Shown here: piece by piece, positions 41,483-57,547 of the stretch
How the letters are laid out: each line of letters starts with the position of its first letter
How positions within the stretch are numbered: the first letter of the stretch is position 1
Source: Microlunatus panaciterrae
GTDB taxonomy: Bacteria > Actinomycetota > Actinomycetes > Propionibacteriales > Propionibacteriaceae
Assembly: GCF_016907535.1 (NCBI RefSeq)
Contig: NZ_JAFBCF010000001.1
Coordinates: 2,666,001 to 2,730,000, forward strand
Direction: 5' to 3'
DNA: 64,000 bases
The notes under the pieces: model-generated
The model's input: the letters and a program-made list of their open reading frames with translations, nothing else
Told to the model about the DNA's origin: nothing
Databases searched by the model: none
Position numbers and translations under genes: made by a program

Positions 41483-41488
41483 ACCGTG

Positions 41489-41690: not shown

Positions 41691-41702
41691 CGAGGCGACC
41701 GG

Positions 41703-42509
41703 TCAGGGTCTCAGCTGGAACGTACGGCTGCCCGGGTCGAAGTGGGTGACGGCGGTTTCGAAGACCCGGCCGATCTCGCCATTGGCGATCAGCTCATCGG
41801 CGGTACCGCTGGACAGCCTCGAACCGTCGATCAGCCAGAGCGCGTCACCCATCCGCAGCGCCAGCTCCACCTCGTGGGTGGACAGCACGACGGTGATGCC
41901 GCGGTCGGCCGCGATCGCCTGGAGCAGGGCCATCAGGTCGACGCGCGCCCCGACGTCGAGGAAGGCACTCGGTTCGTCCAGCAACAGCAGCTCCGGCTGC
42001 TGGACCAGCGCGCGCGCCAGCAGGATGCGCTGGCGCTGCCCGTCCGACATCTCGGAGAACCGCCGGTCCGCCAGAGCCTCGGCGTGCAGCCGCTGCAGGG
42101 TGTCGTCGACCAGCCGGTGCTCCGCCGGGCTCAACCGGCTGGAGAAGCCATGGTGCGGATGCCGGCCCAGTTCGGCCACCTCGCGGCCGGTGAGCAGACC
42201 CACCTCGACCCGGTCGGTCAGGACGACGGCGCTGCGGCGGGCCCGCTCCCTGGCCGGCAGGCCGTCCAGCTCATCACCGGCGAGGGTGACGGACCCGGCC
42301 AGCAGCGGCTGCAGCCCCATCAGGGATCGCAACAGCGTGGACTTGCCGGCGCCGTTCGGGCCCAGCACCGCCGTCACCGTTCCGGGTTCGGCACGGGCGT
42401 TGATGTCGGCCACAACAACGGTGTCGACTCCCCGCAGCGGCCAGCGGCGGGGCGAGCGGTAGCCGACCACCACATCGGTGAGTCGCAGCCCCGGGTCGGG
42501 AGTGCCCAT
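41703..42509 (-). CDS. btuD: ABC transporter ATP-binding protein, probable B12 importer (BtuD-like)
   Basis: A 268-residue ATPase of the iron-siderophore/B12 import family. Walker A LGPNGAGKSTLL, signature MSDGQRQRILLARAL (SDGQ in place of SGGQ) and Walker B LLLLDEPSAFLD with VLSTHEVELA are present. ATG 42509 shares one base with the permease stop, indicating coupling; the frame continues upstream of it without relevant sequence. The role as vitamin B12 importer comes from the cobalamin riboswitch in front of the operon; cobinamide is also possible. Confidence 0.82.
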   Translation of the reverse strand: MGTPDPGLRLTDVVVGYRSPRRWPLRGVDTVVVADINARAEPGTVTAVLGPNGAGKSTLLRSLMGLQPLLAGSVTLAGDELDGLPARERARRSAVVLTDRVEVGLLTGREVAELGRHPHHGFSSRLSPAEHRLVDDTLQRLHAEALADRRFSEMSDGQRQRILLARALVQQPELLLLDEPSAFLDVGARVDLMALLQAIAADRGITVVLSTHEVELALRMGDALWLIDGSRLSSGTADELIANGEIGRVFETAVTHFDPGSRTFQLRP

Positions 42510-43540
42510 CAGACCGCCCCCGCCGCGAGCCGCCGTGACCGCAGCAGCACCACCATCACGACCGGCGCCCCGAGCAGTGCGGTGACCACGTTCAGCGGAA
42601 GCACCGCATCGGTGCCGGGCAGCTGGGCGACCACCGAGCACAGCACCGACACGGTGATCCCCATCAGCACCGTCGCCGGCAGCAGCACCCGATGGTCCGA
42701 GGTGCCGATGCCCAGCCTGGCCAGGTGCGGGACGGCGATACCGAGGAAAGCGATCGGGCCGCAGTAGGCGGTCACGCTGCCGGCGATCAACGCCGTCGCC
42801 GTGACCGCCACCACCCGGACCAGCGACACGTTGACTCCCATCGTCTGGGCGTAGCGCTCACCCAGCAGCAGGGCGTTCAGTGAGCGGCTCAGCAGCAGGG
42901 CCGTGACGACACCGATCACCACAACCGGGCTGAGCACCAGCAGGTCGGTGCGGGTGACTCCGCCGTACGACCCCAGGCCCCAGAGCACGAAGCGCTGCAG
43001 CCGGGCCGGGTCGGCGAACGCCAGGAACAGCGACACGACCGCACCGATGGTCGAGGACAGCATCACGCCGAGGATCAACAAGGTGACCACCGAACGTACC
43101 CAGCGACCCAGCAGCAGGATCAGCAGCAGGACCGCCAACGATCCGACCGCGGCAGCGGCGACCACACTCAGCCGTCCGGCGCCGACAGCCGAGACGAAGG
43201 TGGTGGTCGCGGTGCCGGTGCCGAGGGTGACGACAGCGACGCCCAGGCTGGCGCCGGAGGACACCCCGAGGATGTACGGGTCGGCCAGCGGGTTGGCGAA
43301 CATCGTCTGCATCAACAGCCCGGCGACGGCGAGGCCGGCCCCGGCGAGTGCGGCCGTCGCCACCCGGGGCAGCCGGATCTGGTCCAGCAGGACGGTCCAG
43401 CCGGGCTGGCCGGCATCCCCGGAGCTCAGGTAGGACCACAGTGCGTGCACCGGGATGGTCACCGATCCGGTCGAGATCGCCACCACCACGGCGACGACCG
43501 CCAGCGCGCCGAGCGCCACCAGCACCACGGTCGACCTCAT
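42509..43540 (-). CDS. btuC: FecCD-family ABC permease, probable B12 importer (BtuC-like)
   Basis: A 343-residue membrane protein with about nine or ten helices of the FecCD/BtuCD class. RLPRVATAALAGAGLAVAGL, ANPLADPYILGVSSGASLG and the cytoplasmic coupling region GERYAQTMGVN are diagnostic, as is IAFLGIAVPHLARLGIGTSDHR. ATG 43540 is preferred because GGGG lies shortly upstream; GTG 43552 is in frame. A 72-bp palindromic repeat separates it from the binding-protein gene. Confidence 0.84.
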   Translation of the reverse strand: MRSTVVLVALGALAVVAVVVAISTGSVTIPVHALWSYLSSGDAGQPGWTVLLDQIRLPRVATAALAGAGLAVAGLLMQTMFANPLADPYILGVSSGASLGVAVVTLGTGTATTTFVSAVGAGRLSVVAAAAVGSLAVLLLILLLGRWVRSVVTLLILGVMLSSTIGAVVSLFLAFADPARLQRFVLWGLGSYGGVTRTDLLVLSPVVVIGVVTALLLSRSLNALLLGERYAQTMGVNVSLVRVVAVTATALIAGSVTAYCGPIAFLGIAVPHLARLGIGTSDHRVLLPATVLMGITVSVLCSVVAQLPGTDAVLPLNVVTALLGAPVVMVVLLRSRRLAAGAV

Positions 43541-43556
43541 CGGCGGCCCCACCGGG

Positions 43557-43628
43557 CCAGGGAAACTGTCACTGGACGCGGCAAATTTGCCGCGTCCAGT
43601 GACAGTTTCCCAAGTCGACTTGGGAAAC
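43557..43628 (-). repeat. Dispersed 72-bp palindromic repeat, copy 2, with a perfect 52-bp palindrome
   Basis: On the minus strand this matches copy 1 (32565-32636) at 58 of 72 positions with no gaps. Bases 43560-43611 form a perfect palindrome with 26-bp arms and no loop, centred on CAAATTTG. The core CCCAAGTCGACTTGGG (43609-43624) is itself a perfect 16-bp palindrome. The element lies between btuF and btuC, so the mRNA hairpin could shield the btuF transcript end or reduce permease expression. Confidence 0.85.
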
Positions 43629-43682
43629 CGACACCGACACCGGAACGGACACGGACACCGACACCGGCCCGGGGGAGCGCGG

Positions 43683-44915
43683 TCACCGCAGCTGCCGGTA
43701 GAAGGTGAAGGTGTGGTCGGGCATCAGGTCGGGATGCAGGATGGCGATCAGGTCGGTGATGGTGAGGTCCGGGCGCAGCACGCCCAGCTCGTAGAAGTTG
43801 TTGCCGCCGGACGCGTTCACCTGCAGGCTGGGGGCCCACACCTGACCGGACTTGAAGGCGGCGAACTCGGCGAACCGCGGCTCCTCGGCCAGCGCCTCCT
43901 TCTTGGTGGTCCAGTTGCTTGAGGTGAGCCAGACCGGGGCCGTCCGGGACTTGGCGAAGACCGTCTCCAGATCGGTCTGGATGCTGCCGGTCGAGGTGTC
44001 GTCGGCATAGGGCCAGCTGCCCCTGGCGTCGGTCAGCATCCGCCCCATGAAGCTGCCGCCGGCGGGTACCGACCAGACGCCCTGGTAGGGCTGGCTCACC
44101 ACCGCCTCGGTGGGTTTCGCGTCCTTGGCCAGCGCGACAGCCGCGTCGTAGTCGTGAGTGATCCTGCCGAACACCTCGGTGGCCTTGTCCTCGGTACCGG
44201 TGAGGGCGGCGAAGTACTTGATCCACTCGGCCCGACCGAGCGGGTCGTTCTCGAGGAACTCGGCATCGGCCAGGACCGGGATCTTCGCGTCCCGCACCGT
44301 CGCGTACGCCGGATCCTCGACCCCGCCGGTGACCAGCACGTCGGGCTTGGCCGCCACGATCTTCTCGGCGTCGGTCGTGCCGGCCGGCGCGAACTCGGTG
44401 ACCCCTGCCTCCGCCACCCGCTGCTGGGCGGCCTTGGAGGAGATGAACGCCTTGGACGAGACCCCGGTCAGGACGCCGAGCTTGCCGAGCGCCTCCAGTG
44501 AGGGGATGTGCGTGGTGGACGCCGAGAACAGGCTCTTCACCGGGGTGGTCAGGACAGTGGCCTTGGCGAGCTCCCCGGTCAATGCCGGGGCCTTCGCCCC
44601 GCACCGCACCAGGACGTAGCTCTCCGGCTTGCCGCCGACGACCGGCTGCTTGACGGTCAGCACCTGGTACGAGCGGTGGTAGCTCAGGGTGAAGTTCCGG
44701 GCGTACTGCAGTCTCTGCTTGGTGGGGTAGTAGTCGGTCTCGGCGTCGAAGTGGGTGATGCAGCCGTCGGCTCCGACGGCGGCCGGAGTCGGCCCACCGG
44801 CCGGTCCGGTACCGGTGCCGGTTCCGCAGCCGGCCAGCAGCAGCGCTGCCGAGGCGGCCAACGTGCCGATCAGCGTGGTCAACGAGGGTGACCTGTGGGT
44901 GGTGGTGTGGTTCAT
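43683..44915 (-). CDS. btuF: Periplasmic-type B12-binding lipoprotein (BtuF-like)
   Basis: A 410-residue substrate-binding lipoprotein of the iron-siderophore/B12 class. ATG 44915 follows GGGAG. The signal peptide ends in the lipobox LLLAGC (Cys30). The body has the two-lobed arrangement of this class: ATVLTTPVKSLFSASTTHIP, LGVLTGVS, EKIVAAKPDVLVTGG and, near the end, NNFYELGVLRPDLTITDL. It captures the corrinoid outside the cell. Expression should be shut off by adenosylcobalamin through the riboswitch upstream. Confidence 0.85.
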   Translation of the reverse strand: MNHTTTHRSPSLTTLIGTLAASAALLLAGCGTGTGTGPAGGPTPAAVGADGCITHFDAETDYYPTKQRLQYARNFTLSYHRSYQVLTVKQPVVGGKPESYVLVRCGAKAPALTGELAKATVLTTPVKSLFSASTTHIPSLEALGKLGVLTGVSSKAFISSKAAQQRVAEAGVTEFAPAGTTDAEKIVAAKPDVLVTGGVEDPAYATVRDAKIPVLADAEFLENDPLGRAEWIKYFAALTGTEDKATEVFGRITHDYDAAVALAKDAKPTEAVVSQPYQGVWSVPAGGSFMGRMLTDARGSWPYADDTSTGSIQTDLETVFAKSRTAPVWLTSSNWTTKKEALAEEPRFAEFAAFKSGQVWAPSLQVNASGGNNFYELGVLRPDLTITDLIAILHPDLMPDHTFTFYRQLR

Positions 44916-45069
44916 GTGTGCTCCCGGGCGCGGGCGCGCCCTGGTCGGGGCGCCTGGTCCGTCGACCGCGCGGTCAGGGCACCTGCTTCCAGCTGCCTGG
45001 GGCCTCACACGAGCACTCCTCGCAGAGTGCACCGGGTGGTCGTCCCTCGCGACCCCAGACGCACAGGTC
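44916..45069 (-). promoter_or_regulatory. Expression platform between riboswitch and btuF
   Basis: About 150 nt of leader. Near its end GCGCCC/GGGCGC and GGGCGC/GCGCCC pairings can be drawn next to the GGGAG ribosome-binding site of btuF, so ligand control may act by hiding that site rather than by termination. No T-run is seen. Confidence 0.4.
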
Positions 45070-45262
45070 GGCGACCCGTGCGCCAACGGCAGGTCTTCGG
45101 ACTCGTGGGCGGGGCCTTTCGGCCGGACCTACCGGCTGTCGCTTCCCAGGCCCACCCGTGTCGTCGACACGAGGACGCCCAGTGCTCTATGACAGCTGTC
45201 GTTCCCACTCACCGCTGCGGGGCAGCACCGGATTCACACCGGTTTCCCTTTCCGCTGGCCGG
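45070..45262 (-). promoter_or_regulatory. Cobalamin riboswitch
   Basis: The minus strand shows the conserved parts of the B12 aptamer in order: GGGAAACCGGTGTGAATCC, then GGTGCTGCCCCGC, and about 110 nt later the B12-box-type AGTCCGAAGACCTGCC. The element lies between the gamma-glutamyltransferase stop and btuF. This class binds adenosylcobalamin and lowers expression of downstream corrinoid transport genes. The boundaries are approximate. Confidence 0.9.
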
Positions 45263-45263
45263 A

Positions 45264-46658
45264 TCAGCCTATCGCAGGAATCACCACTCCACTGCGTCGC
45301 GGATCGGCCCCACCGCCCTCGACGCCGATGGCCGAGACGCCGCCGAAGTAGGGGTCGAGCCGTTCGGACACGAGCACCTCGTCACCCGCCAGCCGCAGTG
45401 CGTCGACGACCGCGTCGGAGAAGCCGGGTTCGAGCCGTACGGCCGCCGGCAGCGCATTCAACCGCGGCGCGTTGATGGCCTGCTGCGGGGCCGCGCCGGC
45501 CAGCACCCGCAGCACGCACTGCACCAACGCCGGCCGGATCCGTGACCCGCCGGCCGCTCCGGCCACGAGGATCAGGTTCCGGTCACCGTCGAGGGCGACC
45601 AGCGGCGACATCATCGAACCCATCCGGCTGCCCGGGTGCAACGCCTCCCGGATCAGCTCCCCCTCGCCCAGCATGGAGTTCAGGTGCACGCCGAAGCCGG
45701 GGACCCAGATGCCGGCGCCGAGGCCGAGGCTGGTGGTGACGGCGCAGGCGTTCCCGTCCTTGTCGACGGCCACCAGGTTGGTGGTCTCCGCCCGCCGAGC
45801 CGGGCCGCGCAGCGCCGCAGCCAGGGCGAGCGCCGCCGCCGGATCGTGCAGCGGGTCGGCCCTGACCCCGACCGCCGCCCGGGCCAGGGTGCCGAGGACG
45901 TCGTCGAGGTCGTCGCCGCGCGCCAGCACCGTACGGCCACGGATGTCCACCCCGGCCGGCTCGGACTCCCGCACCCGGTAGGCGGCCAGATCGGCCATCG
46001 ACAGCGCTCCGCCGTCGGCGACAGCAGCGACCGCCGCCGCGGCGAAGGCTCCGGTGTAGAACCCGGCAGGGTCGTCGGCCAGCAGCGCATAGGCCGCGGG
46101 ATGGTCCGGATGGTGCAGCAGGTCACCGGCCTGCAGGTTGGTGCCGTCCGGGCGCCGGTAGACCCGGGCGCCGTCGCCGGCGTGCATGGCCGACGTGATG
46201 TGCGGCAGGAGCGCCGCATGCTCGTACGGCAGCGGCGTGCCGTGCGCCGCCTGGTGTCCCGGCTCGACCACGTCGGCCCAGTCGAGGCGGCCCCAGCGCC
46301 GCCAGAGGTGATGGGCCCCGGCCGGGTTGCCCGGGACGGCGACGGTAGCGGCGCCGATGTCGTAGGGGATCGGCTGACCGCCCAGCGAGACCTCGATCGG
46401 CGTGCCCGGCCCGGCGGTCCGACCGTCCAGGCCCGGTACGGCGACGAAGAAGTCGACGCAGTGCACCCGCCTGGTGGCAGCCTCGTAGTAGACGGCGAAA
46501 CCGCCGCCGCCGAGGCCGGTGAAGATCGTCTCGGCGGCGCAGCTGACCAGCATCATCGCCACCGCGGCGTCGGCCGCGGAACCACCCCGCCACAGGATGT
46601 CCGCACCGGCCTGGGCCGTCGAGGGATGGGCTGCAGCCACTCCAGGTCCGACCTTCAC
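45264..46658 (-). CDS. Gamma-glutamyltransferase-family protein (Ntn hydrolase)
   Basis: A 464-residue member of the gamma-glutamyltranspeptidase family, which cuts itself before a Thr that then acts as nucleophile. The predicted site is Thr292 in AETTNLVAVDKDGNACAVTT. GLGGGGFAVYYE, NSMLGEGE and MSPLVALDGDR also fit. It is shorter than classical enzymes (usually over 530 residues) and I see no signal peptide, so a cytoplasmic role or an acylase activity is possible. GTG 46658 follows a TAGGGT -10 box by seven bases; upstream in-frame sequence is not credible. Confidence 0.82.
   Translation of the reverse strand: MKVGPGVAAAHPSTAQAGADILWRGGSAADAAVAMMLVSCAAETIFTGLGGGGFAVYYEAATRRVHCVDFFVAVPGLDGRTAGPGTPIEVSLGGQPIPYDIGAATVAVPGNPAGAHHLWRRWGRLDWADVVEPGHQAAHGTPLPYEHAALLPHITSAMHAGDGARVYRRPDGTNLQAGDLLHHPDHPAAYALLADDPAGFYTGAFAAAAVAAVADGGALSMADLAAYRVRESEPAGVDIRGRTVLARGDDLDDVLGTLARAAVGVRADPLHDPAAALALAAALRGPARRAETTNLVAVDKDGNACAVTTSLGLGAGIWVPGFGVHLNSMLGEGELIREALHPGSRMGSMMSPLVALDGDRNLILVAGAAGGSRIRPALVQCVLRVLAGAAPQQAINAPRLNALPAAVRLEPGFSDAVVDALRLAGDEVLVSERLDPYFGGVSAIGVEGGGADPRRSGVVIPAIG
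45266..45271 (-). promoter_or_regulatory. Putative -10 box of the riboswitch-btu operon, inside the upstream stop region
   Basis: TAGGCT on the minus strand overlaps the last codons and stop of the gamma-glutamyltransferase (ATA GGC TGA). A start about seven bases later would fall just before the aptamer. The -35 region is not convincing, so read-through from the upstream gene is an alternative. Confidence 0.4.
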
Positions 46659-46665
46659 GCGCCCA

Positions 46666-46671
46666 ACCCTA
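46666..46671 (-). promoter_or_regulatory. -10 box for leaderless gamma-glutamyltransferase gene
   Basis: TAGGGT on the minus strand is followed by seven bases and then GTG 46658. Confidence 0.55.
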
Positions 46672-47012
46672 TGCAGTTCACGTTCCGTGCAACAGCAGCG
46701 CGGCAGCCCAGGCCTCCGGGCGCTTGATCTGCACTGCGGGCGCCGGGACTTTCGTCCCGACTGTGAACCGTTTACCGGCCAAGCCCTAGCCCTGCCGCGA
46801 CCGTTCGTGCAAGATGAGGTGACGACGAGGCGTGGGAGGACACCGACATCGTCCTGCTGCCGTCGGTGCAGCACGCGCGCCGATGATCAGCAGAAGGCCG
46901 CTGCCGGAGATGATCACCACCTCGTCCTTTCCTGGTCCGCACGGCCCCCGAACGCTGCTCACCGGGCCCGTGGCCGGGAACCGAACAGCTCGAGACAGCA
47001 GTGGGAGGTTGG
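46672..47012. other. Divergent intergenic region upstream of narK
   Basis: The space between the gamma-glutamyltransferase and narK must hold the nar promoter. I see a hairpin with perfect 6-bp arms (46744-46759, CGGGAC/GTCCCG) but no clear -35/-10 pair and no good FNR-type TTGAT...ATCAA site. Short open frames in it (for example one ending DIVLLPSVQHARR) have no recognisable function. Confidence 0.4.
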
Positions 47013-48296
47013 ATGAGCGGGCAGTCAGGTGGTCCGGGCCGTGGGGGTCCGAGCGCAGGGACCGCGTCGACCCCAGCCAGGTCGATCCCTGCCAGGGCGT
47101 GGCAGATGCTCGTTCTGGCCACCCTCGGCTTCGCCATCAACTTCTGGGCCTGGGCGCTGCTCAGCCCGCTCGGTCCCAGGTTCAAGGAGCTTCTCCAGCT
47201 GTCCAGCTCCGAACAGGCGCTGCTGGTCGCGGTGCCGGTGATCGTCGGCTCGCTCGGTCGCATCCCAGTGGGAGCGCTGACGGACCGGTTCGGTGGTCGG
47301 GTGATGTTCCCGCTGGTCTCGGCCGCCACCATCGTCCCGGTGCTGTTTCTGGGGCTGTTCGGACAGGACTCGCTGGCGTTGTTGATCATCGGCGGCTTCT
47401 TCCTCGGCATCGGCGGTACGGCCTTCGCCGTCGGTGTCCCCTTTGTCAACGCCTGGTTCCCGCCGGAACGGCGTGGCCTGGCCGTCGGCGTCTTCGGCGC
47501 CGGCATGGGCGGCACCGCCATCAGCGCACTGACAACGGTCAAGCTGGTCGTCGGGCTGGGCCCGACCACGCCGTTCCTGATCACTGCCGTGGCGCTGGCG
47601 GTCTATGCCGTGGTGGCCTGGCTGCTGCTGCGGGATGCGCCGGGGCGGCGAGCACCGACCGAGTTGTTCCTCCGCCGGCTGGTGACCACCACCCGGCTGC
47701 CGATCACCTGGCAGGCGGCCATCCTCTACGCCGTCGCCTTCGGCGGCTACGTCGCGTTCTCGGTCTACCTGCCCGCCTACCTCAAGACCGCCTACGGACT
47801 GACCCAGGCCGACGCGTCGAACCGGATGGCCGGCTTCGTGCTCGTCGCAGTGCTGATGCGCCCGGTCGGCGGCTGGCTGTCGGACCGGCTCGGTTCGCTC
47901 CGGGTGCTGGCCGCGGTGTACGCCCTGGTCGCCGTGTTCGCCTTCGTCCAGTCCTTCACCCCGGCACTGTTCGTGCTCGGCACCATCGCGTTCCTGACCA
48001 TGGCGGCGGCGCTCGGCGCCGGCAGCGGAGCCACCTTCGCCCTGGTGGCCGAGGTCACGCCGCCGGCGAAGGTCGGATCGGTGACGGGAGTGGTCGGTGC
48101 CGCCGGTGGTCTGGGCGGTTTCGTGCCGCCACTGGTGATGGGCGCTGTCTACACCTGGACCGGCGGCTACGGGCTCGGGCTGGCGTTGCTGGCCATCGTC
48201 TCCGCCGCGACCCTGCTGTTCACCCTGACCGTGGTCCGATCCGGTAGTCGCCGGCGTGCCGCCGCCGCTACCGCCGTCGAGGAGCCGAGCCGATGA
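47013..48296 (+). CDS. narK: Nitrate/nitrite transporter NarK (MFS)
   Basis: A 427-residue major facilitator with about twelve helices. Typical NarK signatures are NFWAWALLSPLGPRFKE, the RIPVGALTDRFGGR loop, FVNAWFPPERRGLAVGVFGAG and MRPVGGWLSDRLGSLRVL, which contain the substrate arginines and the nitrate-signature glycines. It imports nitrate and/or exports nitrite for the reductase encoded just downstream. ATG 47013 follows GGGAGG closely; GTG 47001 is an alternative. The stop overlaps narG (ATGA). Confidence 0.92.
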   Translation: MSGQSGGPGRGGPSAGTASTPARSIPARAWQMLVLATLGFAINFWAWALLSPLGPRFKELLQLSSSEQALLVAVPVIVGSLGRIPVGALTDRFGGRVMFPLVSAATIVPVLFLGLFGQDSLALLIIGGFFLGIGGTAFAVGVPFVNAWFPPERRGLAVGVFGAGMGGTAISALTTVKLVVGLGPTTPFLITAVALAVYAVVAWLLLRDAPGRRAPTELFLRRLVTTTRLPITWQAAILYAVAFGGYVAFSVYLPAYLKTAYGLTQADASNRMAGFVLVAVLMRPVGGWLSDRLGSLRVLAAVYALVAVFAFVQSFTPALFVLGTIAFLTMAAALGAGSGATFALVAEVTPPAKVGSVTGVVGAAGGLGGFVPPLVMGAVYTWTGGYGLGLALLAIVSAATLLFTLTVVRSGSRRRAAAATAVEEPSR

Positions 48297-51200
48297 CCGT
48301 CGACGACAACCTGCGCCGGGAACGACCACCCGCCCAGCTCGACGGTCCGTTCACCCAGGCGTTGGTTCGCACCCGGCGATTCTTCACCCGGGCTCAGATC
48401 TCGGACGACTCCCGGACGATGTACAAGATCGGCGGCCGCCAGGCAGACGACTTCTACCGCGACCGGTGGAGCCACGACAAGGTGGTCAGGTCGACGCACG
48501 GCGTCAACTGCACCGGCTCCTGCTCCTGGAAGGTGTACGTCAAGGACGGCATCATCACCTGGGAGTCGCAGCAGACCGACTATCCGTCGGTCGGCCCCGA
48601 CAGTCCGGAGTATGAGCCGCGAGGCTGTCCGCGTGGCGCCGCCTTCTCCTGGTACACCTACTCTCCGACCCGGATCCGCTACCCCTACGTCCGTGGCGTG
48701 CTGCTGCAGATGTACCGCGAGGCGAAGAACCGGCTGGGCGACCCGGTCGCCGCCTGGGCCGACATCGTCGACGACCCGGTGCGGGCCCACAGCTACAAGG
48801 CGGCCCGCGGCAAGGGTGGTCTGGTCCGGGCGAGCTGGGACGAGGCCACCGAGATGGTCGCTGCCGCCCATGTGCACACGATCCAGAAGTGGGGCCCCGA
48901 CCGCGTCGCCGGCTTCTCCCCGATCCCCGCCATGTCGATGGTCTCGCACGCCTCCGGGGCCCGCTTCGTCAACCTCATCGGCGGGTCGATGCTCAGCTTC
49001 TACGACTGGTACGCCGACCTCCCGGTGGCCTCGCCGCAGGTGTTCGGTGACCAGACCGACGTACCCGAGTCCGGCGACTGGTGGAACGCCGGCTACCTGA
49101 TCATGTGGGGCTCCAACGTCCCGGTCACCCGTACCCCCGATGCGCATTGGATGACGGAGGCCCGTTACCGCGGGCAGAAGGTGGTCGTCGTCTCGCCGGA
49201 CTACGCCGACAACGTCAAGTTCGCCGACGAGTGGCTGCCGGCCAGGCCCGGCACCGATGCGGCCCTGGCGATGGCGATGGGCCATGTCGTGCTCAAGGAG
49301 TTCTTCGTCGACCGGTCGACGCCCTACTTCAGCGACTATGTGACCAAGTACACCGACCTGCCGCACCTGGTCTGCCTCAGCGATGACGGCGACGGTGGCT
49401 TCCGGCCGGGCAAGTTCCTCACCGCCGCCGACCTGCCGGACCATCAGCACGAGGAGAACGCCGCGTTCAAGACGGTCCTGGTCGATGCGCTCACCGACGG
49501 TCTGGTCGTGCCGAACGGGTCCCTCGGCCACCGGTACGGCGACGCCGGGGTGGGGAAGTGGAACCTCGAGCTCGGTCCGGTCGAGCCCCGGTTGTCGATG
49601 CTGGAGGGTGACCACGAGCCGGTGCTGGTCTCGCTGCCCCGCTTCGACGCACCCGACGGCGCCGCCCAGACTCTGGCCCGCGGTGTGCCTGCCCGGCGGA
49701 TCGGGGACCGGCTGGTGACCACCGTGTTCGATCTGCTGCTGGCGCAGTACGGCGTCGGCCGGGCCGGCCTGCCGGGTGACTGGACCGCCTCCTATGACGA
49801 CGCGTCCGCGCCCTACACCCCCGCGTGGCAGGAGCAGATCACCGGCGTGCCGGCCGCTGCCGCGGCCCGGATCGGTCGTGAGTTCGCCCGGAACGCCGAG
49901 CAGTCGCACGGCCGGTCCATGATCATCATGGGGGCCGGCACCAACCACTGGTTCCACTCCGACACGATCTACCGGGCCTTCCTGACCTTGATCAACCTGA
50001 CCGGTTGCCAGGGGGTCAACGGTGGTGGCTGGGCCCACTACGTCGGGCAGGAGAAGGTGCGACCGATCACCGGTTACACCCAGATGGCCAACGCGCTGGA
50101 CTGGACCCGGCCGCCGCGGAACATGATCCAGACCGCCTACTGGTACCTGCACACCGACCAGTTCCGCTACGACCAGTTCGGCGCCGACACGCTGTCGGCC
50201 ACTACCGGGCTCGGCCAGCTGGCCGGCAAGAGCACCGCCGACGTGATCGCCCAGAGCGCCCGGATGGGCTGGATGCCGTCCTACCCGACCTTCAACCGGA
50301 ACCCGCTCGAGCTGGCCGACCAGGCTGCGGCCGCCGGTCAGCCGGTCGCCGACTACGTCGTCGAGCAGCTGACCACAGGCAAGCTCGGCTTCGCCGGGGA
50401 GGACCCGGACGCTCCGGAGAACTTTCCCCGGGTGCTGTCCATCTGGCGCGCCAACCTGCTCGGCTCCTCGTCGAAGGGCAACGAGTACTTCCTCAAGCAC
50501 CTGCTCGGTGCCGACTCGTCCCTGCGTGCCACCGAGACCGCCGAGGGAGTGCGGCCCAGAGACGTGAAATGGCACCAGCAGGCGCCGGAGGGCAAGCTGG
50601 ACCTGCTGCTCACGCTCGACTTCCGGCAGACCAGCACCACCCTGTTCTCCGATGTCGTGCTGCCGGCAGCGACCTGGTACGAGAAGCACGACCTGAACAC
50701 CACCGACATGCACCCGTTCGTGCACTCGTTCAACCCGGCGATCCCGCCCCCGTGGCAGACCCGGACCGACTGGGACGCCTGGCAGACGATCGCCGCGAAG
50801 TTCTCGGAGCTGGCCGCCACCCATCTGGGGGTGCGCCGTGACGTGGTGGCGGTGCCGTTGACCCACGACACTCCCGACGCGATGGCCAACCCGCACGGGG
50901 TGGTCCGGGACTGGAAGGCGGGGGAGTGCGACCCCATCCCCGGCGTCACCATGCCGAAGCTGGTCGAGGTGGAGCGGGACTATGGAGCGGTCGGCGCCAA
51001 GATGAACGCTGTCGGGCCGCTGCTGGACAGTCTCGGCGCCACCACGAAGGGGATCACGTTCGACCTCGCCACGCCGCTGCGCTACCTCGCCCAGAAGAAC
51101 GGCGTGGTCCGCGGCGGCCCCGCTGACGGCCGCCCCTCACTGCAACGGGACGTGCACGTCTGCGAAGCCATCCTGGCGCTGTCGGGGACCACCAACGGGA

Positions 51201-52027
51201 TGCTCGCCACCCAGGGTTTCAAGACGTTGGAGGAGCGCACCGGCACCCGGCTGGCGGACCTGGCCGAGGAGCACGAGGGCAAGCAGGTCACCTTCGCCGA
51301 CACCCAGAACGCCCCCGTTCCGGTGATCACCTCGCCCGAGTGGTCCGGTTCGGAGTCCGGCGGCCGCCGTTACTCGCCGTTCACCATCAACGTCGAGCGA
51401 CTCAAGCCGTGGCACACCCTGACCGGCCGGATGCACTTCTATCTCGATCACGACTGGATGACCGAGCTGGGTGAGGGACTGCCGGTCTACCGACCTCCGC
51501 TCAACATGGCGGCGCTGTTCGACGAACCCGTGATCGGCGACGTCTCCGACGGGTCGTCCGGGCGGGTCGCCGGGGTGACGGTGCGCTACCTGACGCCGCA
51601 CAACAAGTGGTCGATCCACTCCGAATACCAGGACAACCTGTTCATGCTCTCGCTGTCCCGCGGTGGGCAGACCATCTGGATGAGCAATGCCGACGCCGAC
51701 AAGGTCGGCATCCACGACAACGACTGGGTGGAGGCCGTCAACCGCAACGGGGTGGTGGTGGCGCGGGCGATCGTGTCGCACCGGATGCCGGAAGGCACTG
51801 TGTACATGCACCACGCCCAGGACCGGCTGATCGACGTCCCGATCGCCGAGACCTCCGGCAGGCGCGGCGGGATCCACAACTCGCTGACCCGGTTGCTGAT
51901 CAAGCCGAGCCACCTGATCGGCGGCTATGCGCAGCTGTCGTTCGCGTTCAACTACCTCGGGCCGACCGGGAACCAACGGGACGAGGTGACGGTCATCCGT
52001 CGCCGTTCCCAGGAGGTGGAGTACTGA
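48293..52027 (+). CDS. narG: Respiratory nitrate reductase alpha subunit NarG
   Basis: A 1244-residue molybdo-bis-MGD catalytic subunit reducing nitrate to nitrite on the cytoplasmic face. The ligands of the FS0 [4Fe-4S] cluster are visible: His69, Cys73 and Cys77 in THGVNCTGSCSW and Cys112 in RGCPRG. The molybdenum-ligating Asp lies in FYDWYADLPVASP (residues 236-248). VTRTPDAHWMTEARY and TGCQGVNGGGWAHYVGQEK are further landmarks. The ATG overlaps the narK stop. Depends on molybdate import (modABC) and on Moco genes not present in this window. Confidence 0.97.
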   Translation: MTVDDNLRRERPPAQLDGPFTQALVRTRRFFTRAQISDDSRTMYKIGGRQADDFYRDRWSHDKVVRSTHGVNCTGSCSWKVYVKDGIITWESQQTDYPSVGPDSPEYEPRGCPRGAAFSWYTYSPTRIRYPYVRGVLLQMYREAKNRLGDPVAAWADIVDDPVRAHSYKAARGKGGLVRASWDEATEMVAAAHVHTIQKWGPDRVAGFSPIPAMSMVSHASGARFVNLIGGSMLSFYDWYADLPVASPQVFGDQTDVPESGDWWNAGYLIMWGSNVPVTRTPDAHWMTEARYRGQKVVVVSPDYADNVKFADEWLPARPGTDAALAMAMGHVVLKEFFVDRSTPYFSDYVTKYTDLPHLVCLSDDGDGGFRPGKFLTAADLPDHQHEENAAFKTVLVDALTDGLVVPNGSLGHRYGDAGVGKWNLELGPVEPRLSMLEGDHEPVLVSLPRFDAPDGAAQTLARGVPARRIGDRLVTTVFDLLLAQYGVGRAGLPGDWTASYDDASAPYTPAWQEQITGVPAAAAARIGREFARNAEQSHGRSMIIMGAGTNHWFHSDTIYRAFLTLINLTGCQGVNGGGWAHYVGQEKVRPITGYTQMANALDWTRPPRNMIQTAYWYLHTDQFRYDQFGADTLSATTGLGQLAGKSTADVIAQSARMGWMPSYPTFNRNPLELADQAAAAGQPVADYVVEQLTTGKLGFAGEDPDAPENFPRVLSIWRANLLGSSSKGNEYFLKHLLGADSSLRATETAEGVRPRDVKWHQQAPEGKLDLLLTLDFRQTSTTLFSDVVLPAATWYEKHDLNTTDMHPFVHSFNPAIPPPWQTRTDWDAWQTIAAKFSELAATHLGVRRDVVAVPLTHDTPDAMANPHGVVRDWKAGECDPIPGVTMPKLVEVERDYGAVGAKMNAVGPLLDSLGATTKGITFDLATPLRYLAQKNGVVRGGPADGRPSLQRDVHVCEAILALSGTTNGMLATQGFKTLEERTGTRLADLAEEHEGKQVTFADTQNAPVPVITSPEWSGSESGGRRYSPFTINVERLKPWHTLTGRMHFYLDHDWMTELGEGLPVYRPPLNMAALFDEPVIGDVSDGSSGRVAGVTVRYLTPHNKWSIHSEYQDNLFMLSLSRGGQTIWMSNADADKVGIHDNDWVEAVNRNGVVVARAIVSHRMPEGTVYMHHAQDRLIDVPIAETSGRRGGIHNSLTRLLIKPSHLIGGYAQLSFAFNYLGPTGNQRDEVTVIRRRSQEVEY

Positions 52028-52056
52028 TGACCGCAGCGACGACCAGGAAGGCCTGA
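52027..52056 (+). CDS. 9-codon mini-ORF bridging narG and narH
   Basis: The narG stop and this start form TGATGA. The frame reads MTAATTRKA and stops one base before the narH ATG at 52058. It contains the narH ribosome-binding site AGGAAGG. It could carry ribosomes across the gap to couple narG and narH translation; there is no evidence that the peptide itself matters. Confidence 0.3.
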   Translation: MTAATTRKA

Positions 52057-52057
52057 T

Positions 52058-53743
52058 ATGCGTGTGATGGCGCAGATGGCGATGGTGATGAACCTGGACA
52101 AGTGCATCGGGTGCCACACCTGCTCGGTGACCTGCAAACAGGCCTGGACCAACCGGTCCGGCACCGAGTACGTGTGGTTCAACAACGTCGAAACCCGGCC
52201 AGGGCAGGGCTACCCGCGTGGCTACGAGGACCAGGAGACCTGGAAGGGCGGCTGGGCCCTGAACCGTCGCGGCCGGCTCAGCCTGCGGGCCGGCGGCCGG
52301 TTCAAGAAGCTGCTGACGATCTTCTCCAACCCCAAGCTCCCGTCGATCCACGACTACTACGAGCCGTGGACCTACGACTACTCCACCCTGACCGATGCAC
52401 CGGCCCAGCAGCACACCCCGGTCGCACGTCCCAAGTCGTTGCTGACCGGCGAGAACATGAAGGTCTCCTGGTCGGCCAACTGGGATGACGATCTTGGTGG
52501 CTCGACCGACCACGGGCACCGCGATGTGATGCTGAAGAACCTCGGGGACAAGGTCAAGTTCGAGTTCGAGCAGACCTTCATGTTCTACCTGCCACGGATC
52601 TGCGAACACTGCCTGAACCCGTCGTGCGCGGCCTCGTGTCCCTCCGGTGCGATCTACAAGCGCACCGAGGACGGCATCGTGCTGGTCGACCAGGATCGGT
52701 GCCGGGGGTGGCGGATGTGCGTGTCCGGCTGCCCCTACAAGAAGATCTACTTCAACCACCGCACCGGCAAGGCGGAGAAGTGCACCTTCTGTTTCCCCCG
52801 GGTCGAGGTCGGCATCCCCACCGTGTGCTCGGAGACCTGCGTCGGGCGGCTCCGCTACATCGGGCTGATGCTGTACGACGCGGACCGGGTGCTCGACGCC
52901 GCCTCGGTGACGGAGCCTCACGACCTGTACCGCTCCCAGCGCGACGTCTTCCTCGACCCGAACGACCCGGCGGTGGTCCGGGCGGCCGAGCAGGCCGGGA
53001 TCCCCAGGGACTGGATCCAGGCGGCCCAGCGCTCCCCGGTCTGGGCGCTGATCAACACCTACGAGGTGGCGCTGCCGCTGCATCCGGAGTACCGGACGAT
53101 GCCGATGGTCTGGTACATCCCGCCGCTGTCACCGGTCGTCGACATCGTGCGTGACACCGGCCATGACGCCGAGGACAAGGGCAACCTGTTCGCCGCCATC
53201 GAGTCGCTGCGGATCCCGGTGGAGTATCTGGCCGAACTGTTCACCGCCGGGGACGTCGCCCCGGTCACCGGAGTGCTGCGCAAGCTGGCGGCGATGCGCT
53301 CCTATATGCGCGACATCTCGATGGGGGACGCGCCGGATGAGTCGATCGCCGCTGCGGTCGGGATGACCGGGTCTGCGCTGCAGGACATGTACCGACTGCT
53401 GGCGATCGCCAAGTACGACGAGCGGTACGTGATCCCGCCGGCACACGCCGAGCAGGCGCACTCGCTGGAGGAGCTGGCCACGGAGTGCTCACTGGACTAC
53501 GAGGGCGGCCCCGGGATGGGCGGGTCCGGGCCGTTCGGGGAAGGCTCCGGTGCTCCGGTGCCGATCGCGGTGGAGAACTTCCAGATGCTGCGGGACCGGC
53601 AGACCAGCGGCTCACTGACCGAGCCGGGGGACAAGCGGGGCCGGGTCAACCTGCTGAACTGGGACGGCAAGGGCCGGCCGGCGGGACTGTTCCCCCCGGG
53701 CGGGTCAGCAGAGGACGGCTCCAGCGGGGAGAAGGCCCCGTGA
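52058..53743 (+). CDS. narH: Respiratory nitrate reductase beta subunit NarH
   Basis: A 561-residue electron-transfer subunit carrying three [4Fe-4S] clusters and one [3Fe-4S] cluster. The cysteine groups are KCIGCHTCSVTCKQAW, CEHCLNPSCAASCPSGAI, CRGWRMCVSGCPYKK (the Trp in place of a Cys marks the [3Fe-4S] site) and CTFCFPRVEVGIPTVCSETC. It passes electrons from the haem subunit NarI to NarG. ATG 52058 is preceded by AGGAAGG. The stop overlaps narJ (GTGA). Confidence 0.97.
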   Translation: MRVMAQMAMVMNLDKCIGCHTCSVTCKQAWTNRSGTEYVWFNNVETRPGQGYPRGYEDQETWKGGWALNRRGRLSLRAGGRFKKLLTIFSNPKLPSIHDYYEPWTYDYSTLTDAPAQQHTPVARPKSLLTGENMKVSWSANWDDDLGGSTDHGHRDVMLKNLGDKVKFEFEQTFMFYLPRICEHCLNPSCAASCPSGAIYKRTEDGIVLVDQDRCRGWRMCVSGCPYKKIYFNHRTGKAEKCTFCFPRVEVGIPTVCSETCVGRLRYIGLMLYDADRVLDAASVTEPHDLYRSQRDVFLDPNDPAVVRAAEQAGIPRDWIQAAQRSPVWALINTYEVALPLHPEYRTMPMVWYIPPLSPVVDIVRDTGHDAEDKGNLFAAIESLRIPVEYLAELFTAGDVAPVTGVLRKLAAMRSYMRDISMGDAPDESIAAAVGMTGSALQDMYRLLAIAKYDERYVIPPAHAEQAHSLEELATECSLDYEGGPGMGGSGPFGEGSGAPVPIAVENFQMLRDRQTSGSLTEPGDKRGRVNLLNWDGKGRPAGLFPPGGSAEDGSSGEKAP

Positions 53744-54417
53744 TCGGCCGACACCCCGAACCCCGGCTGCGACCCGACCAGCTCACCATCGCCTGGCAGA
53801 GCGTGTCGCTGCTGCTGGACTATCCCGATCAACGGCTGCTGGAGCAGACGACGCTGATCCGCAACGCCAGCGCCGAGCTGCCCGACGAGGTCGGCCGGCC
53901 GCTGCGCGAGTTCCTGGACTACCTACAGAGCCGTCCGCCGGAGGAACTGGCGGCCGAGTACGTCCGCACCTTCGATCACCAGAAGAAGTGCTGTCTGTTC
54001 CTGACCTACTTCACCAGCGGCGACACCCGCAAGCGGGGGATCGCCCTGCTCCGGTTCAAGCAGACCTACCTGCGCTCCGGTCTGGTGCTCGGCCCCGACG
54101 AGCTGCCCGATCATCTGTCGGTGGTGCTGGAGTACGCGGCCACCACCGACCAGCGGCTGGGCTGGAAGCTGCTGCTGGACTACCGAGCCGGCTTCGAGCT
54201 GCTGCGGCTGGCGCTGGCGGAGGCGTCCTCGCCGTGGGCGCTGGTCGCCGACGCGCTTCGCGCCACCCTGCCGCCGTTGCGTGGTGACGACTGGGAGGCG
54301 GTGGTCCAGCTGGCCGAGCAGGGTCCACCGGAGGAGGATGTGGGGCTGGAGGCCTTCGCGCCGCCGGAGTACATGCCGGTCGGCAGCGACCAGTACGGCA
54401 GGGGAGGGTACCGATGA
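53740..54417 (+). CDS. narJ: Nitrate reductase assembly chaperone NarJ
   Basis: A 225-residue helical chaperone of the TorD/NarJ family that holds apo-NarGH until molybdenum cofactor is inserted and NarI is docked. YVRTFDHQKKCCLFLTYFTSGDTRKRG is the conserved family core (shown in part: TFDHQKKCCLFLTYF). GTG 53740 overlaps the narH stop and the stop overlaps narI (ATGA). The C-terminal tail is acidic. Confidence 0.92.
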   Translation: MIGRHPEPRLRPDQLTIAWQSVSLLLDYPDQRLLEQTTLIRNASAELPDEVGRPLREFLDYLQSRPPEELAAEYVRTFDHQKKCCLFLTYFTSGDTRKRGIALLRFKQTYLRSGLVLGPDELPDHLSVVLEYAATTDQRLGWKLLLDYRAGFELLRLALAEASSPWALVADALRATLPPLRGDDWEAVVQLAEQGPPEEDVGLEAFAPPEYMPVGSDQYGRGGYR

Positions 54418-55130
54418 GCGTCGTGCTCTGGGTGGTGATTCCCTACATCTGCCTGACCATCTTCGTGGTCGGACACATCTGGCGCTACCGCTACGACAAG
54501 TTCGGCTGGACCACCCGCTCGTCCCAGCTGTACGAGAACCGGCTGCTCCGGCTCGGCAGCCCGCTGTTCCACTTCGGCATCCTGGTCGTGGCCGTCGGCC
54601 ACTTCGCCGGCCTGGTGGTCCCGAAGAGCTGGACCGACGCCGCCGGGGTGCCGGAGGGCGCCTACCACGCGATGGCCGTCGGGATGGGCAGCGTCGCCGG
54701 GATCTGCACGGTGGCAGGGATGGCCATCCTGATCTACCGCCGGCGCACCGTCGGACCGGTGTTCTCGGCCACCACCAGAATGGACAAGCTGATGTACCTG
54801 GTGCTGGCGACGGTGATCCTGCTGGGTCTGGCCAACACCGCCATCGCCAACCTGTTCGGTCACTACGACTACCGCGAAGGGGTGTCGATCTGGTTCCGCG
54901 GGCTGTTCTGGTTCCAGCCGCAGCCCGAGCTGATGGCGGCCGCGCCGCTAGGATTCCAGGTGCACGCGATGGTGGCCATGCTGTTGTTCGCGCTGTGGCC
55001 GTTCACCCGGTTGGTGCATGTCTTCAGCGCTCCGCTCGGCTATGTCACCAGGCCTTACATCGTCTATCGAAGCCGGGACGACCGCCTTGGTGCCCGGACG
55101 CCGCCGCGCGGATGGGAGCGAACCCGATGA
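54414..55130 (+). CDS. narI: Respiratory nitrate reductase gamma subunit NarI (cytochrome b)
   Basis: A 238-residue membrane subunit with five helices and two b haems that oxidises menaquinol. Haem-ligand histidines are expected in LFHFGILVVAVGHFAGL (two) and in FQVHAMVAML and TRLVHVFSAP. HIWRYRYDKFGWTTRSSQ follows the first helix. It anchors NarGH to the membrane. The ATG overlaps narJ; the stop overlaps the cupin gene. Confidence 0.94.
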   Translation: MSVVLWVVIPYICLTIFVVGHIWRYRYDKFGWTTRSSQLYENRLLRLGSPLFHFGILVVAVGHFAGLVVPKSWTDAAGVPEGAYHAMAVGMGSVAGICTVAGMAILIYRRRTVGPVFSATTRMDKLMYLVLATVILLGLANTAIANLFGHYDYREGVSIWFRGLFWFQPQPELMAAAPLGFQVHAMVAMLLFALWPFTRLVHVFSAPLGYVTRPYIVYRSRDDRLGARTPPRGWERTR

Positions 55131-55471
55131 AGGAACACGCAGCAGACCACACAGCCGTTCCGCTCAGCGACCACGCTGTCGAACTGCTGGACGAGGCCGG
55201 CGGTTCGCCCGCCCAGCGGGCCGCCCGGACGCTGATCAGCGGCAGCGTGCAGCGGGTCACCATGATCGCGTTGCTGGCCGGCGCCGAGCTCGCCGAGCAT
55301 GCCTCGCCGTCCGGGGCGTCGTTGCAGGTGCTCCGCGGGGAGGCCAGCTTGCTGGCGGGGGATCGGGTGTGGCCGCTGCGGGCCGGTGAGCTGATCGCGA
55401 TTCCACCCCAGCGGCACAGCGTGCAGGCGCAGACCGATGCGGTACTGCTGCTCACGGTCGCCATCGACTGA
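55127..55471 (+). CDS. Small cupin-domain protein at the end of the nar operon
   Basis: A 114-residue protein whose second half is a cupin beta-barrel ([55 protein letters not shown]). Metal ligands of the family would include the His of AEHASP and the HSV histidine; not all usual ligands are clear. The ATG overlaps the narI stop, so it is translated with narGHJI. Cupins of this type are found in some nitrate-reductase clusters; whether it senses, protects or modifies something is unknown. Confidence 0.75.
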
Positions 55472-55562
55472 GCGGTCACCCACGACCATTAGGGCGGTGG
55501 GCGCTCGCGTGTTACGTTCGACGGACAGAGATCGCGCGTCTCGAGCCTGAATCCGGCTCGAT
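55472..55562. other. Intergenic end of nar operon
   Basis: A bulged GC-rich hairpin (GAGCG..CCCAC with GTGGGCGCTC, 55470-55506) follows the cupin stop and may terminate the nar operon; there is no T-run. Confidence 0.3.
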
Positions 55563-55591
55563 TTGGCATGGCGCACGAACTCTGACAGAAT
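55563..55591 (+). promoter_or_regulatory. Promoter of the S10 ribosomal operon
   Basis: TTGGCA (55563-55568), exactly 17 bp and CAGAAT (55586-55591) give a start near 55598, leaving a leader of about 250 nt before rpsJ. Confidence 0.65.
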
Positions 55592-55597
55592 CTTCGG

Positions 55598-55845
55598 GTT
55601 GCTCCGACGGAGTCGCCGGGGTGTGCCATGGGACTGTCAAGGTCCAGGCCGCCGCACCGCGAGACTTCCAGAAAGTCTGGCCTCAGGGTCGGACGCCACC
55701 CCTAGCACGCAGGAACTGCGGGCTCTGGCGTGTCCAGCAAGTACGACACGCCCGACCTCGGGGGTCGTACCAGGAGAGACACTCGGCTCCGGCCGGGAAC
55801 AGCAGGAATTTGCCGGTAGTAGCAGTACGAGCAGAAGGACTAACT
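55598..55845 (+). promoter_or_regulatory. S10 operon leader with two mutually exclusive hairpins
   Basis: No gene lies in this leader. Hairpin A pairs GGCGTGTC (55727-55734) with GACACGCC (55745-55752). Hairpin B pairs GTACGAC (55741-55747) with GTCGTAC (55764-55770) and contains an inner CCCGA/TCGGG stem. The two share bases 55745-55747 and cannot form together, as in a regulatory switch. S10 leaders are autoregulated by L4 in some bacteria; that this one is, is inference. Confidence 0.5.
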
Positions 55846-56154
55846 GTGGCGGGACAAAAGATCCGCATCAGGCTTAAGGCCTATGACCACGAGGTCATCG
55901 ACTCGTCGGCGCGCAAGATCGTCGACACGGTGACTCGTACGGGTGCGAAGGTTGCCGGCCCGGTGCCGCTGCCGACCGAGAAGAACGTGTTCTGCGTGAT
56001 CCGTTCTCCGCACAAGTACAAGGACAGCCGCGAGCACTTCGAGATGCGTACGCACAAGCGGCTCATCGACATCATCGACCCCACCCCGAAGACCGTCGAC
56101 TCGCTGATGCGGCTCGACCTCCCCGCGGGTGTCGACATCGAGATCAAGCTCTGA
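55846..56154 (+). CDS. rpsJ: Small ribosomal subunit protein uS10
   Basis: A 102-residue protein that is both part of the 30S head and NusE, the partner of NusG's KOW domain and NusB. GTG 55846 follows AGAAGGAC and gives [38 protein letters not shown] is diagnostic. First gene of the S10 operon. Confidence 0.97.
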
Positions 56155-56168: not shown

Positions 56169-56825
56169 ATGAGCGAACGTAAAGTGAAGGGGCTGCTGGG
56201 CACCAAGCTCGGCATGACCCAACTCTGGGACGAGAACAACCGCATCGTGCCGGTCACCGTCGTCCAGGCCGGACCGTGCGTCGTGACGCAGGTCCGCACC
56301 CCCGACCGAGAGGGCTACAACGCGGTCCAGCTCGGCTTCGGCGCGATCAAGGCGAAGAAGGTCACCAAGCCGGCTGCCGGCCACTTCGAAGCTGCCGGGG
56401 TCACGCCACGCAAGCACCTGGTCGAGATCCGCACCTCTGACGCCTCGGAGTACACGCTCGGCCAGGAGCTGGCTGCTGACGTGTTCGCCGCCGCCGAGGT
56501 CATCGACGTCACCGGGGTCAGCAAGGGCAAGGGCACCGCCGGCGTCATGAAGCGGCACGGCTTCCACGGTCTGCGCGCCAGCCACGGTGTGCACCGCAAG
56601 CACCGCTCGCCCGGTTCCATCGGCGGCTGCGCCACCCCCGGTCGTGTTTTCAAGGGTCTGAAGATGGCCGGCCGGATGGGTGTCGACCGGGTCACCGTGC
56701 AGAACCTGACCGTGCACGCCGTCGACGCTGAGCGAGGGCTGATCCTGATCAAGGGCGCCATCCCTGGCAACAAGGGTGGCCTCGTGGTGCTGCGCAGCGC
56801 GGCCAAGAGAGGAGAGGTGGCATGA
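56169..56825 (+). CDS. rplC: Large ribosomal subunit protein uL3
   Basis: A 218-residue protein near the peptidyl-transferase centre. [18 protein letters not shown] and the internal loop [34 protein letters not shown] are clear. Its stop overlaps the rplD start (ATGA). Confidence 0.97.
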
Positions 56826-57547
56826 GCGAGAACCGCACCGTTGACGTGCTCGACCCGACGGGCAAGAAGAGCGGCACCGCCGATCTGCCTGCGGAGATCT
56901 TCGACGTCCAGACCAACATCCCCCTGATCCACCAGGTTGTGGTGGCCCAGCTGGCCGCAGCCCGACAGGGGACGCACTCCACCAAGACCCGCGCCGAGGT
57001 GCGTGGCGGTGGCGCCAAGCCTTACCGGCAGAAGGGCACCGGCCGCGCCCGGCAGGGTTCGCGTCGTGCTCCGCAGTGGGTCGGCGGTGGCGTTGTGCAC
57101 GGCCCGACCCCGCACGGCTACGCCCAGCGGACGCCCAAGAAGATGATCGCCGCTGCGCTCCGCGGGGCCCTGTCCGACCGGGCCCGTGACGGCCGCGTGC
57201 ATGTCATCTCCGACCTGGTGTCGGGGGACAACCCGTCGACCAAGGCAGCTCTTGCCGCGCTGGCCGCGGTGACCGACTCCGCCAAGCTGCTGGTCGTGCT
57301 GGGTCGAGACGAAGACCTCGCCTGGCTGAGCCTGCGCAACGCGGCTCACATCCACGCGCTGGCTGTCGACCAGATCAACGCCTACGACGTGCTCGTCGCC
57401 GACGACGTGGTCTTCACCTCGGTCGCGTTGGAGGCCTTCCTGGCCGGTCCGGCGAGCGGCAAGAGTGCCACCGCCGTCGCCCGTGAGAGCGAGGTCGAGC
57501 CGACCAATGCCGAGATCGCCACGGCCGCCGAGGAGGAGGACAAGTGA
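56822..57547 (+). CDS. rplD: Large ribosomal subunit protein uL4
   Basis: A 241-residue protein lining the peptide exit tunnel, and the known autoregulator of S10 operons in enterobacteria. The extended loop [20 protein letters not shown] and [18 protein letters not shown] are present. A Glu/Ala-rich tail of about 30 residues extends the C-terminus. Overlaps both neighbours by 4 nt. Confidence 0.97.

Follow-up and report, generated by a model that had tools for sequence, protein, structure and literature searches.

The window analysed here, that is, the whole stretch of 64,000 nucleotides, comprises positions 2666001–2730000 of a contig of the Microlunatus panaciterrae genome (4.07 Mb). It contains the start of the str operon (rpsL), the end of tuf at 38206 and, 17.6 kb farther on, rpsJ, which is the first gene of the S10 operon, in agreement with the sequence-only reading of this DNA that had placed an S10 operon leader there. 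The two genes after rpsJ we take to be rplC (L3) and rplD (L4), as their translations were recognised as such. The features of interest, in window coordinates, are the following:

33800–34168, forward strand: rpsL (ribosomal protein S12), start of the str operon, by a protein match whose end is the end given.
55563–55591, forward strand: predicted promoter TTGGCA-17-CAGAAT, with TG ahead of the second hexamer (promoter prediction).
55596–55621, forward strand: block at the predicted transcription start, GGGTTGCTCCGACGGAGTCGCCGGGG, conserved in Propionibacteriales (leader alignment).
55727–55752, forward strand: hairpin A, GGCGTGTC / GACACGCC, 8 Watson-Crick pairs, loop of 10; present, not conserved (folding, pair counts).
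55741–55770, forward strand: hairpin B, GTACGAC / GTCGTAC, 7 pairs plus an inner CCCG/CGGG stem (folding, pair counts).
55744–55768, forward strand: 25-nt conserved leader element, here CGACACGCCCGACCTCGGGGGTCGT (from leaders chosen by S10 similarity).
55753–55767, forward strand: alternative hairpin CGACC / GGTCG, element positions 10–14 with 20–24; exclusive with B, compatible with A (folding, pair counts).
55833–55839, forward strand: Shine-Dalgarno sequence AGAAGGA of rpsJ (sequence inspection).
55846–56154, forward strand: rpsJ (ribosomal protein S10), GTG start, gene 1 of the S10 operon (translation and S10 protein similarity).
56169–56825, forward strand: rplC (ribosomal protein L3; translation recognised).
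56822–57547, forward strand: rplD (ribosomal protein L4, a candidate ligand; translation recognised).

A single promoter-like site turned up upstream of rpsJ (55563–55591), from which transcription would be expected to start near 55598. Together with the positions of the Shine-Dalgarno sequence and of the GTG codon, this makes the leader length of about 250 nt proposed earlier plausible. No terminator-like site occurred in 55450–55860 (0 found), and an intrinsic attenuator in the rpsJ leader was thus rejected; the aligned first 36 nt did not yield a consensus fold at the transcription start. The rpsJ promoter and the first transcribed bases (TCTGNCANGAT...NGGTTGCTCCGRCGG, window 55580–55621) are strongly conserved in Propionibacteriales, as seen among loci L002–L172, and this conservation is separate from that of the 25-nt element.

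The stretch of about 17.6 kb between tuf and rpsJ (38207–55480) is occupied by non-ribosomal genes, while tuf lies at most 350 nt away in 44 of 158 leaders of relatives. Within this gap there is what we take to be a cluster for nitrate reductase, running from 48293 to about 55130, and, on the reverse strand, a Cobalamin riboswitch (45071–45291; Rfam RF00174, 76 bits), behind which the minus-strand genes resemble those for a substrate-binding protein and an ABC transporter.

Hairpins A and B had been proposed as the two states of a regulatory switch. Both were found as described, one of 8 bp and the other of 7 bp with its inner stem, and they can never coexist, as 55741–55752 is common to both. 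Their occurrence is only mildly unusual with respect to chance, and the excess is small: of 1000 dinucleotide shuffles of the 248-nt leader, 72 contained a hairpin of 8 bp and 67 contained two mutually exclusive hairpins with 7 bp or more each. The folding of the whole leader gave z = −1.45, with 18 of 200 shuffles equally stable. The hairpins folded singly gave z values of −3.89 (A) and −3.31 (B), but they had been chosen for stability beforehand. The minimum-energy fold of the full leader included B and not A, and an isolated 44-nt piece favoured A with a short hairpin on its 3′ side (−20.9 kcal/mol).

The comparison with relatives spoke against the switch as drawn. The seven outer pairs of B were all intact in only one of 120 protein-chosen leaders, which was that of M. 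panaciterrae itself. Over 197 sites, the outer pairs were formed at the level of the shuffles (0/25, 36 versus 35.1; −1/26, 57 versus 58.1; −2/27, 55 versus 52.2). The covariation check suggested for the rpsJ leader gave no firm support. The inner pair 9/18 of B was C-T in 82 of the 197 sites and in all 18 distinct variants from outside the class, and the CGAC/GTCG core is the sole part of B common in relatives. The full arm of A was found at 3 of 197 sites, against an expectation of 1.3. Helices that join upstream sequence to the 5′ half of the element by 7 pairs or more were in weak excess (11.2% of sites versus 4.2% of shuffles), and the A/G column of the element failed to track the upstream arm, since leaders with A would pair better with G substituted (4.79 versus 4.44). 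The A/B switch as drawn was rejected on these pair counts, shuffles and relatives; hairpins A and B in this form are a local feature of the M. panaciterrae genome.

What is conserved is the 25-nt element that both hairpins overlap. Its class consensus is CGACACRCCCGACCNCGKGGGTCGG, from which the M. panaciterrae copy differs in one position, the last base. The element was present, with up to 5 mismatches, in 129 of 158 rpsJ leaders selected by S10 protein similarity alone: 96 leaders had no mismatch, 22 had one, 7 had two, 2 had three, and one each had four and five, while 29 gave no match. Thus, 127 of 158 differed at no more than 3 positions. Searched on the reverse strand, these 158 leaders gave no element at up to 4 mismatches. 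These leaders belong mostly to the class Actinomycetes, with a few records titled as other groups; the window itself recurs in three records (L001, L089 and L194), of which L089 was not counted among the 158. Degenerate elements were seen in two Propionibacteriaceae rpsJ leaders, those of Tessaracoccus massiliensis (L042) and of an uncultured bin (L049), with 6 and 5 mismatches, respectively. Three records titled Melainabacteria, Acidimicrobiales and Rubrivirga (L031, L033 and L043) carry S10 genes 94–97% identical to that of M. panaciterrae and are probably mis-binned metagenome contigs.

The strictness of the element was estimated from 120 protein-chosen sites, for which at most 4 substitutions were required and which were deduplicated, with the M. 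panaciterrae window included. Of its 25 columns, 13 were invariant, and conservation fell at both edges, the adjoining columns reaching no more than 1.16 bits. Columns of the spacer and of the 5′ part are among the strictest, a pattern other than that of two equal half-sites. Invariance is quoted from these sites because part of the larger set of 197 had been picked by an exact degenerate pattern; the latter set required at least 60 nt of upstream sequence and was reduced from 216 by removing flanks more than 85% identical. The conservation of the sequence is beyond doubt, which cannot be said of its pairing.

In a class sample of 148 genomes, the exact degenerate pattern matched in 96 genomes (reversed control, 0), and 135 matched when up to 3 mismatches were allowed (reversed control, 7). 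The 13 genomes with no match include 5 (G266, G302, G322, G346 and G353) of the 132 genomes with an S10 gene hit. Named carriers include Microlunatus, Aeromicrobium, Nocardioides, Phytoactinopolyspora and Cutibacterium, and also Streptomyces, Kitasatospora, Micromonospora, Asanoa and Paractinoplanes.

Three explanations of the conserved sequence were discarded. A conserved small peptide is at odds with the variable columns 7, 15, 18 and 22, which do not fall on any single codon position (an argument drawn from the columns only). Mimicry of rRNA by sequence was rejected, as the best scores of the element against the 16S and 23S rRNA of M. panaciterrae were within the shuffled range, none above the shuffles. 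A known RNA family was also rejected: there was no Rfam match in 20 related loci, nor any Rfam 15 match in the rpsJ leader, where a permissive threshold gave only a lncRNA with an E value of 8.5.

The presence of the element depends on the position of rpsJ relative to tuf. When tuf was not found within 350 nt, the element was present in 114 of 114 leaders (tuf was farther off in 22, was not within 1500 nt in 84, and less than 1500 nt of upstream sequence was available in 8). With tuf within 350 nt, it was present in 15 of 44. In all the 29 leaders without it, the end of tuf is 85–302 nt upstream of rpsJ, and therefore in those 29 the S10 operon comes directly behind the str operon.

The exact pattern occurred 110 times in the class sample. 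At 83 of these loci, which were fetched, the next gene was that of S12 in 55 and that of S10 in 28, and the element was in the orientation of the gene in 83 of 83. Another 26 matches are within 260 nt of rpsJ, and the remaining one is on G341:C33. As is usual for ribosomal leaders, the element thus consistently precedes genes for ribosomal proteins and points the same way as they do, at 83 of 83 loci and in 129 of 158 leaders. The matches away from rpsJ are mostly 4–5.6 kb upstream of it, and farther in Streptomyces-like genomes; this 4–5.6 kb class occurs alone in at least 37 genomes and along with an rpsJ copy in at least 20, while 25 class genomes have, among the matches listed, an rpsJ-linked match alone. 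Many class genomes thus have two copies, one before rpsJ and one before rpsL, the rpsL copies having been counted over the class sample and not individually in the 29 genomes lacking the rpsJ element. In M. panaciterrae the element is in the rpsJ leader only, and the rpsL leader is devoid of it. Taken together, these positions put the element at the start of the unit leading into the S10 operon, before rpsJ itself or, if the str and S10 operons are joined, before rpsL, and often at the start of a separate str operon too. As a side observation, the Streptomyces-like rpsL promoters (L178–L182) have in common TTTTGACC, about 17 nt and TAGGTA, and the M. panaciterrae rpsL leader (33625–33650) contains a similar TTTTGACC and no element.

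Concerning its place within the leaders, the element is about 30 to 230 nt ahead of the start codon. In 56 Propionibacteriales leaders (56 of 66 aligned rows) it is 114–236 nt downstream of the conserved start block. A TTGAC/TA promoter pattern was found 53–199 nt upstream of the element in 38 of 50 S12 sites, and upstream of it in only 24 of 147 S10 sites, so most S10 promoters outside Propionibacteriales were not located; between element and gene, this pattern was absent from all 197 sites. Wherever promoters were located, the element is downstream of the predicted promoter.

Outside the class Actinomycetes the element changes. Of the 198 genomes sampled over the phylum, 181 are outside the class; 8 of these matched at 3 mismatches, the same number as the reversed control, and two of the outside-class matches (G157 and G201), 4.6–4.7 kb upstream of rpsJ, sit before rpsL. 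A variant pattern, CGRAACGCCCGRCYNCGTGRGYCGG, precedes rpsL in 25 of 34 loci examined, at 20–193 nt from the gene, these 25 belonging to three families (f17, f32 and f48); at the other 9 loci (L310 and L328–L335) it was not before rpsL. The variant pattern is noisy at 3 mismatches; of the outside-class matches listed with 2 mismatches or fewer, 24 of 25 are among the confirmed rpsL loci. The rpsL site may perhaps be older than the rpsJ site, because it is rpsL that the outside-class variant precedes.

Two pairings compete for the 3′ bases of the element. One is the B core, CGAC (1–4) with GTCG (21–24), and the other is the alternative hairpin, which in most relatives extends to CCGACC (9–14) with GGTCGG (20–25). 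The earlier claim of competing pairings did not stand for A and full-length B, while something of it survives in the B core, intact in 101 of 120 sites, and its rival, intact in 88. The inner stem of B was intact in 73, and both the B core and the five inner pairs of the alternative hairpin were broken in 19. In class sites, the varying pairs were at shuffle level. In the 18 distinct outside-class variants, the six pairs of the alternative hairpin were kept in 17, 17, 18, 17, 12 and 16, C-G at pair 14/20 being replaced by A-T and T-A, and the B core kept pairs 1/24, 2/23, 3/22 and 4/21 in 18, 16, 18 and 2.

Over 65 distinct 25-mers, outside-class ones included, the two-sided changes numbered 7 in hairpin 9–14/20–25 versus 4.5 in shuffles (58 of 500 reaching that value) and 6 in the B core versus 3.5 (42 of 500). 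For B core cells paired, the observed value was reached by 3 of 500 shuffles, a control weakened by related rows. No convincing pair emerged from mutual information computed over the ungapped alignment. By ensemble folding in context, the probability of the B core exceeded 0.5 in 8% of the 147 S10 sites and in 2% of the 50 S12 sites, and that of the alternative hairpin in 23% and 30%, respectively; in M. panaciterrae the B core reached 0.98. Two competing pairings inside the element are therefore possible, without firm covariation for either.

The explanation that seems to us to account best for these results, and which we hold with some confidence, is that the element is a leader RNA signal, recognised mainly by its sequence, which controls the transcription unit that holds the S10 operon, with a ribosomal protein as the putative ligand. 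Such a leader signal would probably let the cell control its output of ribosomal proteins. The element would act as RNA, an interpretation favoured over DNA because of its position after promoters or start blocks and its constant orientation relative to the gene. A ribosomal protein of the unit, most likely one from the S10 operon, would bind it when in excess over rRNA, and binding would lower expression throughout that unit; leaders of this kind usually serve for feedback by a ribosomal protein. The S10 operon is preferred as the source of the ligand because every examined rpsJ leader not close behind tuf has the element, while the str operon may lack it. L4 would be the first candidate, by precedent only. 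The effect could bear on transcription, by pausing in the leader or by early and possibly Rho-dependent termination, or on mRNA stability. Either seems likelier than direct covering of the ribosome site because some 30 to 230 nt separate the element from the start codon.

The second copy that many genomes keep before rpsL is not accounted for by an S10-operon ligand alone. A broader reading, which we advance tentatively, is that the str and S10 operons of Actinomycetes are both governed by one sequence-specific RNA signal, read by the same regulator, and that a variant form of it governs the str-S10 cluster in other classes of the phylum. The signal would then keep its place at the start of the transcription unit, whether the operons separate or fuse. 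If true, this would amount to a master control over the expression of translation genes, of a previously undescribed kind.

Among other explanations, the one that survives best, unlikely as it seems, is that the element is not concerned with feedback and is a loading site for an elongation or antitermination complex, of Nus or NusG type, for the long str-S10 unit. A short, sequence-strict, distance-tolerant element, in a single orientation at the head of the unit, would suit such a role, and S10 itself is NusE. However, 109 of the 110 exact-pattern matches of the class sample are at rpsJ or rpsL, no other operon was seen with the element, and the element shows no evident resemblance to boxA.

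A transcription factor site in DNA, lying within the transcribed leader and recognised as the inverted repeat CCGACC-5-GGTCGG, is considered improbable. A conserved, in part near-palindromic sequence without firm covariation is what such a site would look like, but the element was never inverted relative to the gene in the 83 fetched loci, and at up to 4 mismatches the reverse strand of the 158 leaders was empty. Moreover, it lies 53–236 nt downstream of the predicted promoters or start blocks that were located, and the distribution of its strictest columns, over spacer and 5′ part, is not that of equal half-sites.

We give equally little credit to S7 of the str operon as the ligand acting on both operons. 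The element does precede rpsL in 55 of the 83 fetched class loci and in 25 outside-class loci. S7 regulates the str operon in E. coli, and control of the str operon by S7 is described in PMC2965389. Against this, M. panaciterrae keeps the element in the S10 operon and lacks it in the str operon, and the 25 class genomes with an rpsJ-linked match alone, among the matches listed, have the same implication.

Finally, it is very improbable that the element works by the exchange of hairpins A and B, real and exclusive though they are, or by a related exchange between the two pairings of its 3′ end, since the excess of upstream helices, the retention of B-core pairs 1/24, 2/23 and 3/22 outside the class and the paired cells of the B core are outweighed by the lack of conservation of A and full-length B, an A/G column that ignores the upstream arm, the loss of pair 4/21 in 16 of 18 outside-class variants and the appearance of such an exclusive pair in 67 of 1000 shuffles.

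Returning to the preferred reading of a leader RNA bound by a ribosomal protein, its closest precedent is the S10 operon of E. coli, which, according to the sections of PMC10931766 on this operon, is controlled by L4 through a structured leader with a terminator. The likeness consists of a long leader before rpsJ with the whole S10 operon downstream. In contrast, the M. panaciterrae leader has no terminator-like site and no Rfam match, its element is short and strict in sequence and, in many genomes, stands before rpsL as well. This bears out the earlier remark that no known site was recognised in this leader: there is an element of control type there, unlike that of E. coli.

Candidate ribosomal leaders in the rpsJ 5′ UTR have likewise been proposed in Firmicutes/Clostridia (the S10 r-leader; PMC7247131) and in Peptostreptococcaceae (the rpsJ motif; PMC11109978). 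As far as their descriptions in these articles go, both are structural motifs from another phylum, and it is by those descriptions that they are set apart here. Leader control before rpsL-rpsG-fusA-tuf was treated by Naville and Gautheret (2010, PMC2965389), whose rpsL leaders with premature terminators are, in the portion concerned, terminator/antiterminator structures without any shared feature, from Listeria, Xanthomonas, Pseudomonas, Rickettsia and streptococci, whereas here a single sequence element is found in Actinomycetota. In the same phylum, ribosomal protein leaders are represented by the actinobacterial L31 and L17 r-leaders (PMC7247131) and by the control of mycobacterial rpsO by S15 (PMC8470358); these concern other genes, and covariation or a pseudoknot is reported in the relevant parts of those papers.

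Among the 20 leaders of Eckert and Weinberg, the pertinent text of PMC7247131 names no S10 or S12 leader in Actinobacteria. The element was not found in the openly licensed papers searched, supplements aside; the text string GACACGCCCGACC retrieved 0 papers, and the portions consulted of PMC8914203, PMC8269248 and PMC5784534 contain nothing on it. The balance of ribosomal proteins in actinobacteria is almost unknown, as stated for the phylum in the part of PMC8470358 dealing with it. A near-invariant 25-nt site before two large translation operons makes this question directly testable, in a class that includes the antibiotic producers of the genus Streptomyces. Unlike most described ribosomal leaders, the element has no pairing firmly backed by covariation, and both candidate stems are broken at 19 of 120 sites. 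As a ribosomal leader it would thus stand out by its sequence rather more than by a covarying structure, and surveys that rely on structure can overlook leaders of this type.
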